Source of the DNA: Saprospiraceae bacterium
GTDB lineage: Bacteria > Bacteroidota > Bacteroidia > Chitinophagales > Saprospiraceae
Length of the DNA stretch: 64,000 nucleotides
Direction: 5' to 3'
Assembly (NCBI GenBank): GCA_013001595.1
Contig: JABDMH010000073.1
Span: forward strand, 124,001-188,000
Shown piece by piece: positions 23,641 through 31,099 of this stretch. The translations under genes and the position numbers were made by a program. The first letter of the stretch is position 1. Every line of letters begins with the position of its first letter. The notes under the pieces were generated by a model that searched no databases, was not told the origin of the DNA, and worked only from the letters and a program-made list of their open reading frames with translations.

Positions 23641-24969
23641 CTATTCTTCCTCCCCCCTAAGATCTTCAATGACTTGGTCTACTTTTTCTTCCAACACAAA
23701 AGCAATCGCTTTTATCGTATCGACCACATCTTCCAAACCCTCCTCGATAGATTCGACAATCTGGCCCGCCTTCTTCTTTCCATCATCCAGTAAGGCCTCC
23801 GCCGCTTTCTGTATATCTGGATCATGAGATCGTTCTTCCTCAGCCTTTTTAATGTCTTGAGCGATCTTGTCCTTAATGTCTGCTTTTGCCTTCTTAATTT
23901 CTTCGCGCGCAGCACGTTCTTTTTCCCTAGCCTCAAGGAGTTCCATCTTGTCTTCAAGCTGCTTGCGGGTCCGAAGCATGTCCTCAAGTTTCTCCCCTTT
24001 TGACTCTACTCGCTCCTCGATCATCTTTGTCTTAGCTGCTCGCAATTGTGCCTCCAAAGATCCGTCCGTATTTTCAATGCGTTCCTTCTGAAAAGCCAGA
24101 TCTTTACGATCTCTTCCGATCGATCGTTCCATCTTAGCAATGGCATTTATCAACCCATCGTATCGCCGCTTGATTCGTTCTAGTGGGCTCATTCGGCCAG
24201 TAGATTCATCACCGTACTTCTCTTTCTTTACCTTCTTAAATAGTCCGTCCAGCTTTTTCCACACCTGGGCGCGGTGATCACGGGTAAATTTAGTGTCCCT
24301 AAATTTCTTTTGCAGATCCTTCAACTCCTGAAAAATTGGTTGAAGGCTAAGGCCATCTTGTACCTTTTTATCGATCGCTTCAAGTTGCTCCTTAAAATGT
24401 GCAAAGTGCTTCTCAGATAATTCATGAAATTCAGCATCCAGCTGCTTTCTCAATTTCTTCATTTCTGTGAAAAGCTCATCAGTCCCTTTCCTTATTTTAT
24501 TGGCATGATCTCTAAACAAGTTCTTTTCACGTACTTGAGTTTGTACTTTAGACCAAAACCCCTTCAATTCTTCCCAAAAACCGGGATCGAATTGCTCTAA
24601 TTTCTGCAACTTCTCTTTCAAATCGTCGAGTTCATTTTGGTAGGCCCTATATAATTTGGAGGAGAGGACCACAAAATGCCATTCCGTCTGGGCCCTTTTC
24701 AAAATATCCTCTCGCTGTACAGAGTAGCCATCGGGAAGCATGGACTGGGTTATGCCCAGTGTACGTTGCTCTGTGATGTGGTTTTCAGGGAAGAGTATAT
24801 CCTTACCGGAACGCCACTGATCTTGCATCTGACTGGCAAAATCCTCTGTGATCTCCGATTCAGGAAAAATGTACACATCAATTGTGCTTTCATTTTCATT
24901 CAGATTGAGGCCTATAAGCACTTTCTCATCCGCCTCGTTTTTTCCCCAAAAAACTAGTCTAGTTCTCAT
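23641..24969 (-). CDS. Long coiled-coil protein of unknown function with two DUF349-like repeats
   Basis: A 442-residue, strongly charged protein without signal peptide or membrane segment. I start it at the ATG at 24969; the frame also allows a TTG at 24978. The first 100 residues form a globular domain that opens with MRTRLVFWGKNEADEKVL. The rest is mainly helical. Two stretches repeat the pattern F-x-RDH-x(5)-K-x-x-D-x-LF (about residues 150-170 and 228-246), which resembles the DUF349 repeat. A very charged K/E/R coiled coil follows, and the C-terminal 60 residues are acidic and amphipathic (AGQIVESIEEGLEDVVDTI). Function is unknown; an RNA- or ribosome-associated scaffold is one guess. 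It forms an operon with pepP. Confidence 0.75.
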   Translation of the reverse strand: MRTRLVFWGKNEADEKVLIGLNLNENESTIDVYIFPESEITEDFASQMQDQWRSGKDILFPENHITEQRTLGITQSMLPDGYSVQREDILKRAQTEWHFVVLSSKLYRAYQNELDDLKEKLQKLEQFDPGFWEELKGFWSKVQTQVREKNLFRDHANKIRKGTDELFTEMKKLRKQLDAEFHELSEKHFAHFKEQLEAIDKKVQDGLSLQPIFQELKDLQKKFRDTKFTRDHRAQVWKKLDGLFKKVKKEKYGDESTGRMSPLERIKRRYDGLINAIAKMERSIGRDRKDLAFQKERIENTDGSLEAQLRAAKTKMIEERVESKGEKLEDMLRTRKQLEDKMELLEAREKERAAREEIKKAKADIKDKIAQDIKKAEEERSHDPDIQKAAEALLDDGKKKAGQIVESIEEGLEDVVDTIKAIAFVLEEKVDQVIEDLRGEEE

Positions 24970-25055
24970 TGCAAACAATTTTCATGGAAGTGTAATTCGA
25001 TACACATCCACATGGTGTTTTCGATAAGTTAGTTTAAACCATGAAAACAAACAAA

Positions 25056-26359: not shown

Positions 26360-26447
26360 ATGAGTTTGTTTAAAAAAAAAGGACCTCAAAGACAAGTCCA
26401 AATATCAATAAGTGTATTTTTAGTTATGCTCCAATGGATTTTGTTTG
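26347..26447. repeat. Direct repeat copy B, overlapping the start of the lamin-tail gene
   Basis: This is the second copy of the roughly 100-bp imperfect repeat found at 26042-26141, offset by about 306 bp. It covers the ATG at 26360, the alternative ATG at 26426 and much of the signal-peptide coding sequence of the 876-residue protein. The signal-peptide segment LQWILFV is therefore encoded by DNA that in copy A lies in asd's non-coding leader. Confidence 0.8.
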
Positions 26448-28990
26448 TTATTCCTATTCTATGTCTAAATATTGGCTTCAGTCAGGTACACTTTGACTTC
26501 TCATCTGAGATGAATGGTTTGGAGGGTTGGAGCGGCGACACCGCAGATTTCACGATCAACGTTTCGGAAGTATTACAACTGTCTGCCGATGGTGCTGGAG
26601 AGAGTGCCCTATTTCTTCCACTAGATGCCTTTCCGGCTACTTGGAAGCTGGATGTTCGTCTGGATTTTGATCCCTCTGCCAGTAATCGCCTTCGCCTCTA
26701 TTTAGTTATAGACGATGCAAATCTTACCAAAGCGAGCGGGTATTTCTTAGCCTTGGGAGCACAAGGAAATGCAGATGTTTGGTCCTTTTATCGAGTTCAA
26801 GATGGACAGCCTGAACGTCTGGGCTCCGGCAATCGAAATTTGGCTCAAAAGCCATCCATTTCTCTAGAGGTTCAATTGAAAAATGATGTATGGACCTTCT
26901 GGATTGATGATGTGCATGATTTTGAGATCACTGAGCCTCCACAAACACTAAACACAGCTAAATTTTGCATCGCCTGCAAGTACAGCGAAACTCGGAAGGA
27001 CAAATTTTTCTTCGACAACCTAACAATCTCACCTACTGAAATAGTGGATACTTTGCCACCTGAATTAGTAGCTATTGACGTCCTTGATGAGCGTTCACTA
27101 ACACTGCATTTTTCTGAAAGACTGGACTCCCTCGCAGCCACCATTCCTGCTCATTACGGGGTAGCTCCAGCACTAGGAAGCCTCATTGCAGTCCCCCTAT
27201 CACCCGATCATACCAGTGTCATGCTGACATTCGCCACCGGCTTTATCAATGGCCAGTCCTATCGACTAACTGTTCATGATTTGGAAGACGAGCATGGAAA
27301 CGAGATAGACACTCAAACTGTGTCTTTTGAATACCTATTGCCCCAAGAAATAGCCCCACACCAAGTCTTAATCAACGAGATTTACGACGATCCAACACCC
27401 TCACAAGGTATTCCTGAGTCTGAGTATATTGAAATATACATAGCTGGTTCTGTCACTGCCATTGATGCAAGTGAACTGATCATCCGCAAAGATGGAAGGG
27501 CATATCCGTTACCAAAGGCGGCACTGGTTGGTGAAAGCTACTATTTGCTCTGTAATGAAGACCATGTTGACGATCTATCTATCTACGGTGATGTATTGGG
27601 CGTGAAAGGATTTCCAACCTTGAGAAATAGTGGAAATGCGCTGACAATTGAAACAGTACAAGGTATATTGATACATACTGTGCAATACGATGACAGCTGG
27701 TTTGGTGAAGCAGCCAAAGAAGGTGGTGGATGGTCCCTGGAGCTGATAAACCCTAGAGATCCCTGTGCACTGAATGGAAATTGGGCAGGATCCATCAGCA
27801 TCATTGGCGGTACTCCTGGTGAACAAAACAGCATTTGGGATACGACCATATCGTCCACCCTTGCTTCGTTGCAATATCATGAGATTCCTTCTGCAACTCA
27901 ACTTAATCTGATATTTGATAAAAAACTTGGCGATATTCAACATACAGATTTCCACCTTACAGGAGGAGAAGCTGCAGTTGTCAATGCACAGATTTCCAGC
28001 ATCAATGCACACATCATTTCTCTGGAAGTAGCCCCAACCTTTTTAGCAGGAATTGACTACAGCATCAACATCAGTCAACTTAATGACTGTGAAAATCAAC
28101 CGATTTCCTATCCATCACTGCAGTTCAGATTGCCGGACAATGCAATGCCTGGTGATTTACTCATCAATGAAATCTTATTTAACCCTGTAGTGGGAGGCAG
28201 TGATTTCGTGGAAATCTACAACGGCTCTGACAAAACCATCAGGGCGGGAGATCTCTACATTGCAAATGTGCAGGGAACAGGTCAGTCTGTAGCACAATTG
28301 ATTTCAGATCAAGCCATTTTGCCGGGAGCTTATTTTGTAATCTCTGAGAATCCTGAAGACATCGTGAATAAATACACAGTGGAAGAGCCCCAAAACCTAA
28401 TGAAAAATGACCTGCCCGCGTTAGATGATGATGCAGGAAATGTGACATTATATACGGTCATACATGGAGAGGCTGTGGTTATTGATGTAATGGACTACGA
28501 CAAGTCATTTCACACCAGTCTACTGAAGAAACAAGATGGTGTCAGTTTAGAACGGATCAGCACTGAAGCTGCAGGCAACAACCAACATAATTGGCACAGT
28601 GCTGCTGCTTCCGTAGGCCATGCTACGCCCACTGCTTCCAATAGCCAACAGGTAATTGCAAGTCTTGGTGAGCAACACTTTGAGCTTATTGAGAAGGTGT
28701 TTTCTCCGGATGGAGATGGGTTTCAGGATGTACTTGCCATCTCCTACCAGTTTCTTCAAGCAGGCACTTTTGCCACCACCAAAATCTTTGATTCAAGTGG
28801 AAGACTGACCAAAGTACTCACCAATAACCTCTCACTGGCCACCAATGGATTGATTACATGGGATGGCACAGATGAAGATGGTAGGAAGTCAAACATAGGC
28901 ATCTACACGATCTTGCTCGAGGCTTTCAATCTGCAAGGCACAAAGATCCGTTGGAAGGAGACCTGTGTAATGGCAGGCAGATTGAACTAG
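26360..28990 (+). CDS. Secreted lamin-tail-domain protein with Ig-like and FlgD-like C-terminal domain
   Basis: An 876-residue exported protein. A signal peptide precedes a concanavalin/laminin-G-like N-terminal sandwich (about 45-225, FDFSSEMNGLEGWSGD). Next come a Big_5-type Ig-like domain (about 233-325), a first lamin-tail domain (from about 333, VLINEIYDDPTPSQG), a second Ig-like segment and a second lamin-tail domain (from about 596, LLINEILFNPVVGGSDFVEIYN). The C-terminal 95 residues (FSPDGDGFQDVL ... YTILLEAFNLQG) are FlgD-Ig/gliding-CTD-like, as in T9SS-exported proteins. A role on the cell surface is inferred. The start could be 26360 (basic N-region) or 26426; both leave a hydrophobic leader encoded in repeat copy B. 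Confidence 0.85.
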   Translation: MSLFKKKGPQRQVQISISVFLVMLQWILFVIPILCLNIGFSQVHFDFSSEMNGLEGWSGDTADFTINVSEVLQLSADGAGESALFLPLDAFPATWKLDVRLDFDPSASNRLRLYLVIDDANLTKASGYFLALGAQGNADVWSFYRVQDGQPERLGSGNRNLAQKPSISLEVQLKNDVWTFWIDDVHDFEITEPPQTLNTAKFCIACKYSETRKDKFFFDNLTISPTEIVDTLPPELVAIDVLDERSLTLHFSERLDSLAATIPAHYGVAPALGSLIAVPLSPDHTSVMLTFATGFINGQSYRLTVHDLEDEHGNEIDTQTVSFEYLLPQEIAPHQVLINEIYDDPTPSQGIPESEYIEIYIAGSVTAIDASELIIRKDGRAYPLPKAALVGESYYLLCNEDHVDDLSIYGDVLGVKGFPTLRNSGNALTIETVQGILIHTVQYDDSWFGEAAKEGGGWSLELINPRDPCALNGNWAGSISIIGGTPGEQNSIWDTTISSTLASLQYHEIPSATQLNLIFDKKLGDIQHTDFHLTGGEAAVVNAQISSINAHIISLEVAPTFLAGIDYSINISQLNDCENQPISYPSLQFRLPDNAMPGDLLINEILFNPVVGGSDFVEIYNGSDKTIRAGDLYIANVQGTGQSVAQLISDQAILPGAYFVISENPEDIVNKYTVEEPQNLMKNDLPALDDDAGNVTLYTVIHGEAVVIDVMDYDKSFHTSLLKKQDGVSLERISTEAAGNNQHNWHSAAASVGHATPTASNSQQVIASLGEQHFELIEKVFSPDGDGFQDVLAISYQFLQAGTFATTKIFDSSGRLTKVLTNNLSLATNGLITWDGTDEDGRKSNIGIYTILLEAFNLQGTKIRWKETCVMAGRLN

Positions 28991-29046: not shown

Positions 29047-30000
29047 ATGCTGCAGCGGCTTTTTCGTCATCCCCTGGTAAACGGAATGCTGGTCATAGGA
29101 ATGATCGGCCTGGCCCTACTTTGTATTGTCAAGATTCCGGATGTAGTCTTGCTAAAACGTATAGCCAGCCATGCCATACAGATCATGCTACTATTTGTTG
29201 CTGCTGGCCTCTTTTTTCTATTCGCTAATCAGCAGAGACTACTCTTTATAGCCTTTGGCTGCGCAGGGGCTCTATGTCTGCATTTTAAATATGTAGGCAA
29301 TATTAGCCTCGCACTTCCGGTCAAGACATCTGAAAAAAGCATCACGATTTTACACACCAATACCGATGATTTTTCTGATGATTGGCATTCAGTGATCAAC
29401 ACCATCATCGGGACCGATGCGGATGTAGTTAGTTTCATCGAAGTTACGCCTAATTGGGCCCAATTACTATTGAAAGTGCTTGATGAATATTATCCTCACC
29501 ATGCACTCATTACCAGAATTGATCCCTTTGGTACCGCCATTTTTTCACGGTATCCAGTCGTACATAGAGATACGGTTGTATATGAGAACTTACCTAATCT
29601 CAGTGCCGCTATCAAGATTGACAACAAGAAATTCATTAAGGTTTTTAGCTCAAATTCTAATCCACCACTCTTTCGCAGTTCTTTCGAAAAGTTGAGAAAC
29701 CAACTGGATGTGATGGCAAAGGCCATCTCCTCGTCAAGCCATCCAGTGATCACCGCCGGCAACTACAATTTGGATCAATTCTCCGATGAACTCCAAGACT
29801 TTCGAGCAGAGGCCAAACTCGAAGATAGTCGGAAGACCATGTCACCATCTATAAATCCCCCAACGAATCATCTATTCCATACCAGAGATTTGGAATGTCT
29901 GCGGTTTTTCAACGTGTATGACGAAAAATCGAATCGGCTGGGCATCATGGGAGAGTATCAATTCAAAAGCGATGACCAAGCTACCGCACAAGGAGGTTAA
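29047..30000 (+). CDS. Membrane-anchored endonuclease/exonuclease/phosphatase-fold protein, probably catalytically dead
   Basis: I start at the ATG at 29047 (317 residues); the longer TTG-initiated frame overlaps the preceding gene. Three hydrophobic segments (about 12-30, 41-60 and 64-82) are followed by an EEP domain (about 97-307). The fold is recognisable from ITILHTNT, VVSFIEVTP, GTAIFSRYPV and GNYNLDQFSD. Asn105 and Glu132 of the metal site are present. However, the usual HxHPP-type motif reads NSNPP, GDxN reads GNYN (Asn239), the next DH reads NH (Asn274) and the final DH reads NR. It therefore looks like a pseudoenzyme. The dgkA gene overlaps its 3' end, which suggests a role in envelope lipid biology. 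Confidence 0.75.
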   Translation: MLQRLFRHPLVNGMLVIGMIGLALLCIVKIPDVVLLKRIASHAIQIMLLFVAAGLFFLFANQQRLLFIAFGCAGALCLHFKYVGNISLALPVKTSEKSITILHTNTDDFSDDWHSVINTIIGTDADVVSFIEVTPNWAQLLLKVLDEYYPHHALITRIDPFGTAIFSRYPVVHRDTVVYENLPNLSAAIKIDNKKFIKVFSSNSNPPLFRSSFEKLRNQLDVMAKAISSSSHPVITAGNYNLDQFSDELQDFRAEAKLEDSRKTMSPSINPPTNHLFHTRDLECLRFFNVYDEKSNRLGIMGEYQFKSDDQATAQGG

Positions 30001-30352
30001 TCGATTTGTGGCCGCTGCCAATGGCTTGAAGGAATTCTTCGCACGTGACAGTCATGCGAGACTGCATGCCATCGCCGCTCTTGCAGCCATGGCAATGGGC
30101 TTTATCCTCCGCATCGAAGCATGGGAATGGGCCGCCATCATATTTTGCATTGTATTGATCATTTGCTTTGAAATGCTCAATACAGCCATTGAAGTAATGT
30201 GTGATTTTCTGGAACCGGGCTATAGTAAACCCATAAAAATTATAAAGGATCTGGCTGCTGGAGCCGTATTGGCATCGGCTCTGGGAAGCATAATTGTCGC
30301 TGGCCTCATTTTTTTACCCAAAATAACTGAGGCCTTGTTTCATTTAGAATAG
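29972..30352 (+). CDS. dgkA: Diacylglycerol/undecaprenol kinase family protein
   Basis: A 126-residue trimeric-type integral membrane kinase. The start is the ATG at 29972, which overlaps the preceding gene by 29 bp. It has the conserved RFVAAANGLKEFFARDSHARLHA amphipathic surface helix (only part of which is membrane-embedded) followed by three transmembrane helices, and the active-site motif FEMLNTAIEVMCDF with the essential Glu and Asn. In Gram-negative bacteria the family phosphorylates diacylglycerol or undecaprenol, recycling lipid intermediates. The overlap suggests coupled translation with the EEP-fold gene. Confidence 0.92.
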   Translation: MTKLPHKEVNRFVAAANGLKEFFARDSHARLHAIAALAAMAMGFILRIEAWEWAAIIFCIVLIICFEMLNTAIEVMCDFLEPGYSKPIKIIKDLAAGAVLASALGSIIVAGLIFLPKITEALFHLE

Positions 30353-30556: not shown

Positions 30557-31099
30557 ATGATGAATCGATTCCTTCAATTCCTGACAATTTTATCTGTCAC
30601 TGCCCTTGTGTCTTGCAGTCCAAATTATAAGCCATTCACAGTAGATCTACAAGACTCCTACAATTGGTCAGAAGACGAACTCAAAAAAATCCAATTCTAT
30701 CTATCGCAAGAGATAGTCTTGCAGAGAAACTTATCTAAGGGAGAATCGGTCATTGAGGGTGGCAAGATCCAAGTACGTGAAGGTCGTCGAATTGAAGAAA
30801 TCAGAATTCCAGAGGGGACTCCCGGTGTACTTATGTTTATGCCAAAACCAAATCGATTGGCCATCAGTTTTGAGCGTGGCAAGGACAGATTTCTAATCTT
30901 TGGTCCACACCCAAAGCGTGACGGAACCTATGTTTTGCTGGGATCAGACTGGGATAGAAGATCAGGTGAGGTGACCTACCGAGGCAAGAAATATCGGACC
31001 TCTTCGCAAAGTGCCTATGCAGCACTGCTGGTAGATTTGGAACGGGTTAGTAAGGTTTCTTTAGCCCGCCATACGGCCAAAGGTAGAACTGTACGTTGA
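30557..31099 (+). CDS. Predicted lipoprotein of unknown function
   Basis: A 180-residue protein with a clear type II signal (MMNRFLQFLTILSVTALVSC, lipid on Cys20). The mature part is beta-rich and basic, with KIQVREGRRIEEIRIPEGTPGVL, a phrase FERGKDRFLIFGPHP and the strand GTYVLLGSDWDRRSGEVTYRGKKYR. I recognise no named family; such lipoproteins are usually listed as conserved hypothetical in Bacteroidota. It stands alone between the dgkA gene and the convergent pcm gene, and a dispersed repeat follows it. Confidence 0.75.
   Translation: MMNRFLQFLTILSVTALVSCSPNYKPFTVDLQDSYNWSEDELKKIQFYLSQEIVLQRNLSKGESVIEGGKIQVREGRRIEEIRIPEGTPGVLMFMPKPNRLAISFERGKDRFLIFGPHPKRDGTYVLLGSDWDRRSGEVTYRGKKYRTSSQSAYAALLVDLERVSKVSLARHTAKGRTVR

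Follow-up and report, generated by a model that had tools for sequence, protein, structure and literature searches.

An EEP-fold membrane protein of Saprospiraceae with most of its canonical catalytic residues replaced

Among the described proteins related by fold to the one considered here, neutral sphingomyelinase SMPD2 and TDP2 are active enzymes with a complete metal site. Most of the well-known pseudoenzymes are kinases, proteases and nucleases of eukaryotes. The pseudonucleases of the Dis3/RNase II group (PMC8097288) and the iRhoms (PMC3149277) are reported to have lost their catalytic residues and retained a non-catalytic role. Regarding a bacterial pseudoenzyme of the endonuclease/exonuclease/phosphatase (EEP) type, no paper was found in the open-licence literature, which is weak evidence, and the related matches were eukaryotic or viral as judged by title. 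The EEP fold, dgkA and pseudoenzymes are all already known; what seems to be new in the family described below is the scale and the graded series of its residue loss, including stubs that lack the domain.

The window analysed here is a stretch of 64,000 nucleotides from a Saprospiraceae bacterium, and the gene of interest runs from the ATG at 29047 to the TAA at 30000. Its product of 317 amino acids has three membrane helices followed by an EEP domain, and the features discussed in the following paragraphs are located as listed.

29047..30000, + strand: gene of the predicted EEP-fold membrane pseudoenzyme, 317 aa (ORF; Pfam PF03372 49 bits; AlphaFold2 pLDDT 92, pTM 0.87)
29047..29316, + strand: three-helix membrane module, residues 1-90 (model helices 9-27, 43-59 and 63-83)
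29326..29970, + strand: predicted EEP-fold domain, residues 94-308 (VIA-align Z 24.1 to 4ruw, 23.5 to 8j2f, 23.4 to 5inm)
29359..29361, + strand: N105, canonical Asn kept (Ser in the 6 other clade members)
29440..29442, + strand: E132, canonical metal-binding Glu kept (alignment with intact homologues)
29653..29655, + strand: N203 in place of the catalytic His, within SNSNPP (Asn in 7/7 of the clade; His kept in 32/104 of the family)
29761..29769, + strand: N239-Y-N241, GNYN for GDxN, where N239 replaces Asp and N241 is kept (Asn239 in 7/7 of the clade; Asp kept in 46/104)
29866..29868, + strand: N274 in place of Asp, NH for DH (Asn in 5/7 of the clade; Asp kept in 80/104)
29932..29937, + strand: N296-R297 in place of the terminal D-H (297 is Arg in 6/7 and Lys in 1/7 of the clade; His in 51/104)

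The superfamily profile Exo_endo_phos matches residues 116-266, with a score above its curated cut-off (49 bits against 24.5). The AlphaFold2 model, calculated from an alignment (A3) of the window protein with 45 relatives from named records, confidently predicts the alpha/beta-sandwich of the superfamily, with the alternating strands and helices of the EEP domain downstream of the helix 63-83. The ORF, the profile match and the model all agree, bearing out the EEP-fold membrane protein that an earlier note, made from the letters alone, had placed at 29047-30000. That note had proposed structure prediction and superposition on EEP proteins as a check, and residues ~90-310 of the model superpose on solved EEP proteins with Z values of 20.6-24.1 among the 50 matches shown, the best being 4ruw (Z 24.1 over 215 residues), consistent with a confidently predicted EEP fold. 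By sequence, phmmer found no EEP relative of the window protein among the PDB sequences, and the A3 profile returned weak matches to TDP2, nocturnin and EEP proteins, the best having an E value of 0.0086. An assignment to the YafD-type equivalog (NCBIfam NF003842/PRK05421) was rejected on score, with 12.3 bits against a cut-off of 144.

Regarding the membrane topology, K+R minus D+E was averaged over 110 orthologues: the N-terminus has a mean of +1.9, loop 1 a mean near 0, loop 2, which is short, +1.4, and the segment following helix 3 +0.4. Considering the positive-inside rule and three helices, the charges of the N-terminus and of loop 2 point to an N-terminus located inside, so that the EEP domain of the window protein would probably be on the periplasmic side, as judged by these mean charges.

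Compared with intact homologues, five of the eight canonical active-site residues, which are found at or beside strand ends in the model, are replaced in the window protein (H203N, D239N, D274N, D296N and H297R), and N105, E132 and N241 are kept, leaving 3/8 of the complete N, E, H, GDxN, D, D-H set of catalytic EEP members. The motifs named in the earlier note, SSNSNPP, GNYN, TNH and SNR, are all present in the protein. Its statement that Asn and Glu of the metal site remain holds for the window protein (N105 and E132) but not clade-wide, as the six other members carry Ser105 and one of these six has Asp for Glu at position 132. It had also asked whether the Asn residues are conserved among orthologues: in the seven members of the window clade, Asn203 and Asn239 are invariant, position 274 is Asn in 5/7 and N296 is variable.

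Two other sources of these replacements were considered. An artefact or sequencing error was rejected, since independent genomes show such replacements in ORFs that are intact. Chance or a poor alignment was likewise rejected, as these positions do not vary in 8/8 rows of a paralogue outgroup and in the canonical EEP family from genomes of Saprospiraceae, where all eight residues are kept in 30/30 loci (those given out of 40 listed matches); they are also intact in 7/12 relatives from outside Saprospiraceae.

The degeneration of the window protein thus stands as first described, but its scope is not that of one odd protein, being family-wide and reaching the absence of the whole domain at 12 loci read in one genus (g41). 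At E <= 1e-10, the window protein was matched in 193 of the 298 genomes sampled from Saprospiraceae, a few weak matches among the 193 being canonical paralogues. The sample used for the alignment, 120 fetched loci plus the window, gave 110 orthologues, 8 outgroup rows (L053-L060, eight loci assigned to the paralogue outgroup by score) and 3 stubs (L049-L051), which were excluded from the alignment. None of the 104 aligned Saprospiraceae orthologues keeps all eight residues, compared with 7/12 relatives from outside the family, including 6/6 of those read from other families at class level; judged by their residues, these 7/12 outsiders together with the 30/30 canonical-family loci would be relatives of active type outside the clade.

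The losses are unequal among the positions. In the 104 family orthologues, Glu132 is kept in 97, Asn105 in 85, Asn241 in 84, Asp274 in 80, His297 in 51, Asp239 in 46 and His203 in 32, and the final Asp (296) is found in only two (L137 and L149), both with Glu for the following His. It may be with this final Asp that the residue loss began. As seen in a quick tree of 118 rows, from which the catalytic columns were left out and in which 32/115 inner branches are open, the minimum numbers of changes are 22 for D239, 18 for H297, 15 for H203, 13 for N241, 11 for N105, 10 for D274, 6 for E132 and 4 for D296, a range indicating that the loss was repeated. When the final Asp is counted apart, the seven other residues are all kept in 8/110 orthologues, one of which (L063, from outside the family) keeps all eight, suggesting that some members of the orthologue group may still be enzymes. 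In addition, one locus from Saprospiraceae (L056, genome G042) has all eight residues intact and, despite its outgroup score, falls among the orthologues in the tree, where its branch is long; if it is an orthologue, the family would not be wholly degenerate.

For the consequences on catalysis, we take position 239 of the window protein to be equivalent to Asp262 of TDP2 and to Asp210 of APE1, and position 296 to Asp350 of TDP2. The window protein has Asn at both 239 and 296, together with three more changes, and both catalytic histidines are gone. The single changes D262N and D350N each abolish the activities of human TDP2 (PMC10407441), and APE1 D210N, which is written there as 'Asp210Arg (D210N)', leaves DNA bound but uncleaved (PMC3174134). 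Taken together with sequence and phylogeny, these single mutants suggest that canonical catalysis has very probably been lost in the window protein, and the pseudoenzyme reading of the earlier note is well supported by the residue loss, by the phylogeny and by the fixation of Asn203 and Asn239 in the clade.

The protein could instead still be an enzyme with a rebuilt active site, where E132, N105, N239, N241, H275 and R157/D159 would bind metal and hydrolyse a phosphoester by an altered mechanism. Consistent with this, E132, N241 and N105 remain in the window protein, and the family fixed further polar residues while losing the former ones, as R157 is found in 86/104 and D159 in 91/104 of its members, neither predominating among the 12 outsiders, and H275 in 85/104 of the family vs 1/12 of the outsiders. 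However, a single D-to-N change at presumably equivalent positions abolishes the activity of TDP2 (PMC10407441), the replacements at 239, 296 and 297 vary widely among relatives, unlike a new conserved catalytic set, and the EEP domain is wholly absent at the 12 stub loci of g41, making this explanation quite improbable.

The gene is placed between two neighbours that recur with it in other genomes:

26360..28990, + strand: lamin-tail-domain (LTD) protein, whose C-terminal domain may be of the type IX secretion kind (PF00932 46 bits; CHU_C 24.4 bits, below the cut-off of 27)
29972..30352, + strand: dgkA, prokaryotic diacylglycerol kinase family (PF01219 99.5 bits; 29-bp overlap with the EEP gene from this start)

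The overlap of 29 bp with dgkA reported earlier is exact if dgkA starts at the ATG 29972, and the longest ORF, starting at 29918, gives 83 bp. The LTD gene ends 56 bp before the start of the EEP gene and lies upstream on the same strand in 76/121 loci, window included. As in the window, dgkA is directly downstream in at least 53/110 orthologous loci, at nominal distances of -209 to +109 bp; gaps and overlaps use the longest ORF start and are hence nominal, adjacency was judged by comparison of coordinates, and some fetched stretches stop at contig ends, so that the adjacency counts are lower bounds. In genomes without an EEP gene beside dgkA, the LTD gene is directly upstream of dgkA in 11/40 dgkA loci read (gaps of -101 to +205). 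Two further stretches of the window, 23641-24978 and 30557-31099, encode proteins for which Pfam gives no match at E <= 0.01; they are met again in the vicinity of the EEP gene in 38 and 13 of the 121 loci, respectively, window included.

Considering 120 genomes, 55 possess both the EEP gene and dgkA (40 adjacent, 9 elsewhere and 6 with the place of the EEP gene not listed), 25 the EEP gene without a detected dgkA, 32 dgkA without a detected EEP gene and 4 neither, and 4 ambiguous genomes (G037, G042, G062 and G103) were set aside. In these counts, an EEP gene is not detected when it gives no single-sequence match at E <= 1e-10, so that a strongly diverged relative, for example L251 of G028, is scored as missing, and a few genomes without a detected dgkA are incomplete assemblies. 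The EEP gene is therefore not confined to dgkA-bearing genomes, as the 25/120 indicate, and with adjacency in many loci the link to dgkA is strong in synteny but not obligate. It was also observed that dgkA is undetected in 30/120 genomes, 25 of them with the EEP gene, an excess with a Fisher p of 0.02 that is uncorrected for kinship. A connection between dgkA adjacency and the retention of His203 (29/53 adjacent vs 5/57 non-adjacent loci) was tried and rejected, not being significant given the phylogeny, which offers 5 usable independent pairs.

In genus g41, 21/42 genomes match a stub query consisting of the membrane module alone, and the loci read, the best 12 of 22 matches, are in 12/12 cases ORFs of 113-168 aa without an EEP domain, with dgkA at -179 to +37 bp. 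Regarding the unread matches, that of G550 and one of the two of G553 contain stop codons, and that of G555 is an open frame of 292 aa. Proteins of three helices only (L049-L051 and L283-L294) stand directly before dgkA in one Saprospiraceae genus, with similar helices and different C-terminal tails. A relative of 322 aa in genome G028 (L251:1820-2788) is so diverged that the family profile matches it with an E value of 0.0055; its ORF overlaps dgkA nominally by 98 bp, and it may represent an EEP fold that is barely recognisable by sequence.

Such stubs, together with the very degenerate L251 overlapping dgkA, the stepwise loss of residues and the 11/40 loci in which the LTD gene directly adjoins dgkA and no EEP gene intervenes, could also be understood as an EEP domain under relaxed selection and in the process of being lost, a passenger of a membrane module that alone matters, and the EEP-to-membrane rate ratio is 1.5 and 1.8 in two close pairs of the window clade. 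This is unlikely in view of the signs of selection on the domain itself. For this domain, the pair L156/L157 (residues NETNNLKT/NETNNFKT) has a dN/dS of 0.08 and the pair L095/L104 (NEYEHDNH) one of 0.03, in both cases with dS < 1, these being the only two degenerate pairs with an EEP-domain dS below 1 and belonging to genera other than that of the window. In the window clade dS is saturated, so that selection there is read only from intact ORFs and a dN of ~0.2-0.3; in 5/6 relatives the ORFs are intact, with 50-62% identity to the window protein, and the sixth has 38% identity. Moreover, when the EEP-to-membrane rate ratio was compared with the number of residues lost in 30 sister pairs, there was no significant rise (rho -0.29, p 0.12), and the EEP domain had not significantly accelerated in comparison with the membrane module.

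In the 49 most degenerate members, P135, D159, G162, L258, S261, R262, C284, G299 and Q305 are conserved at 90-98%, and the old catalytic positions D239, D274 and H297 rank 104, 65 and 139 of 212 in conservation; E132, however, is still found at 86%, ranking 15/212, a point against the pseudoenzyme reading. The residues P135, R157, D159, D175, T176, P206, E248 and Q305 are typical of the family and not of the 12 outsiders, suggesting that new constraints arose alongside the losses. Residues fixed specifically in the clade were not significantly concentrated around the former active site (p 0.06-0.14). Strict conservation of family-specific non-catalytic residues speaks against a passenger domain, and as degenerate members retain both these residues and the length of the protein, the window protein is likely kept for a non-catalytic role, as far as the sequences indicate.

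Regarding its partner, the three-helix module could be a dedicated accessory subunit of DgkA, with the EEP domain as an optional extension, since dgkA follows directly in at least 53/110 orthologous loci and in 12/12 stub loci read, with ORFs often overlapping. This remains doubtful: the EEP gene occurs without a detected dgkA in 25/120 genomes (a few of the assemblies being incomplete) and dgkA without a detected EEP gene in 32/120, and the LTD gene is upstream in 76/121 loci, so that the synteny is not specific to dgkA. In addition, the EEP domain and the active site of DgkA would probably be on opposite faces of the membrane. A coupling of the window protein to DgkA, as suggested by synteny, is accordingly held as tentative.

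Weighing these explanations, we favour, as reasonably probable, a membrane-anchored EEP pseudoenzyme, probably periplasmic, acting as a non-catalytic binding or scaffold protein. Its ancestor would have been an ordinary metal-dependent EEP phosphodiesterase or phosphatase, whose active site was presumably dismantled residue by residue within Saprospiraceae, the protein being retained by selection. The three N-terminal helices would anchor the EEP domain at the membrane, probably at its periplasmic side, and the domain would bind and not hydrolyse: the face that once carried the active site would hold either a phosphate-bearing ligand, such as a nucleotide or the head group of a lipid, or another protein. 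By analogy with APE1 D210N, which still binds DNA, the pocket that once held the phosphoester could still hold a phospho-ligand. The helix module may then connect the EEP domain with a partner in the membrane, DgkA being the leading candidate. Of this picture, the computations bear directly on the predicted fold, the residue loss, the active-type relatives outside the family and the purifying selection in those pairs that allow a measurement; the absence of activity, the periplasmic side, the ligand and the DgkA partnership are inferred. The earlier suggestion of 'perhaps a binding or regulatory protein' is compatible with the evidence.

A bolder interpretation, which we consider possible but speculative, is that of a family present in every stage from enzyme to non-enzyme, with complete sites outside, piecemeal loss inside, neofunctionalised pseudoenzymes and a stub overlapping dgkA, where the conserved function would be that of a previously unrecognised DgkA-associated membrane module with a non-catalytic EEP sensor of phospho-ligands. 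More than 100 natural sequences from one bacterial family share one fold and, in many cases, the same gene neighbours, and their active sites extend from almost complete to missing; they make it possible to study which residues remain important after catalysis is gone. They also bring a caution, as genes of Saprospiraceae that match 'endonuclease/exonuclease/phosphatase' need not be enzymes, and they point to a possible membrane companion of DgkA.

Compared with known systems, the closest is the canonical EEP family of Bacteroidia, represented by a paralogue from the same genome (L001) and L214-L242 and overlapping with L053-L060, which has the EEP domain and common positions such as W245 and R262; it differs from the window protein in keeping all eight catalytic residues in 30/30 loci and in having no dgkA in the fetched stretches of L053-L060. 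The orthologues with intact sites that come from other families of the class (L295-L300), together with L063, have DSR, C284, F287 and xxHxGI-type features in common with the window protein, to which L063, L295, L297 and L298 align over the full length, and these seven differ from it by their full N/E/H/GDxN/D/SDH set. The human neutral sphingomyelinase SMPD2 (8j2f) and mouse TDP2 (5inm) have the fold in common (Z 23.5 and 23.4), with 14-17% identity, a similarity by fold alone. Finally, the Dis3/RNase II pseudonucleases and the iRhoms differ from the window protein in fold and organism.
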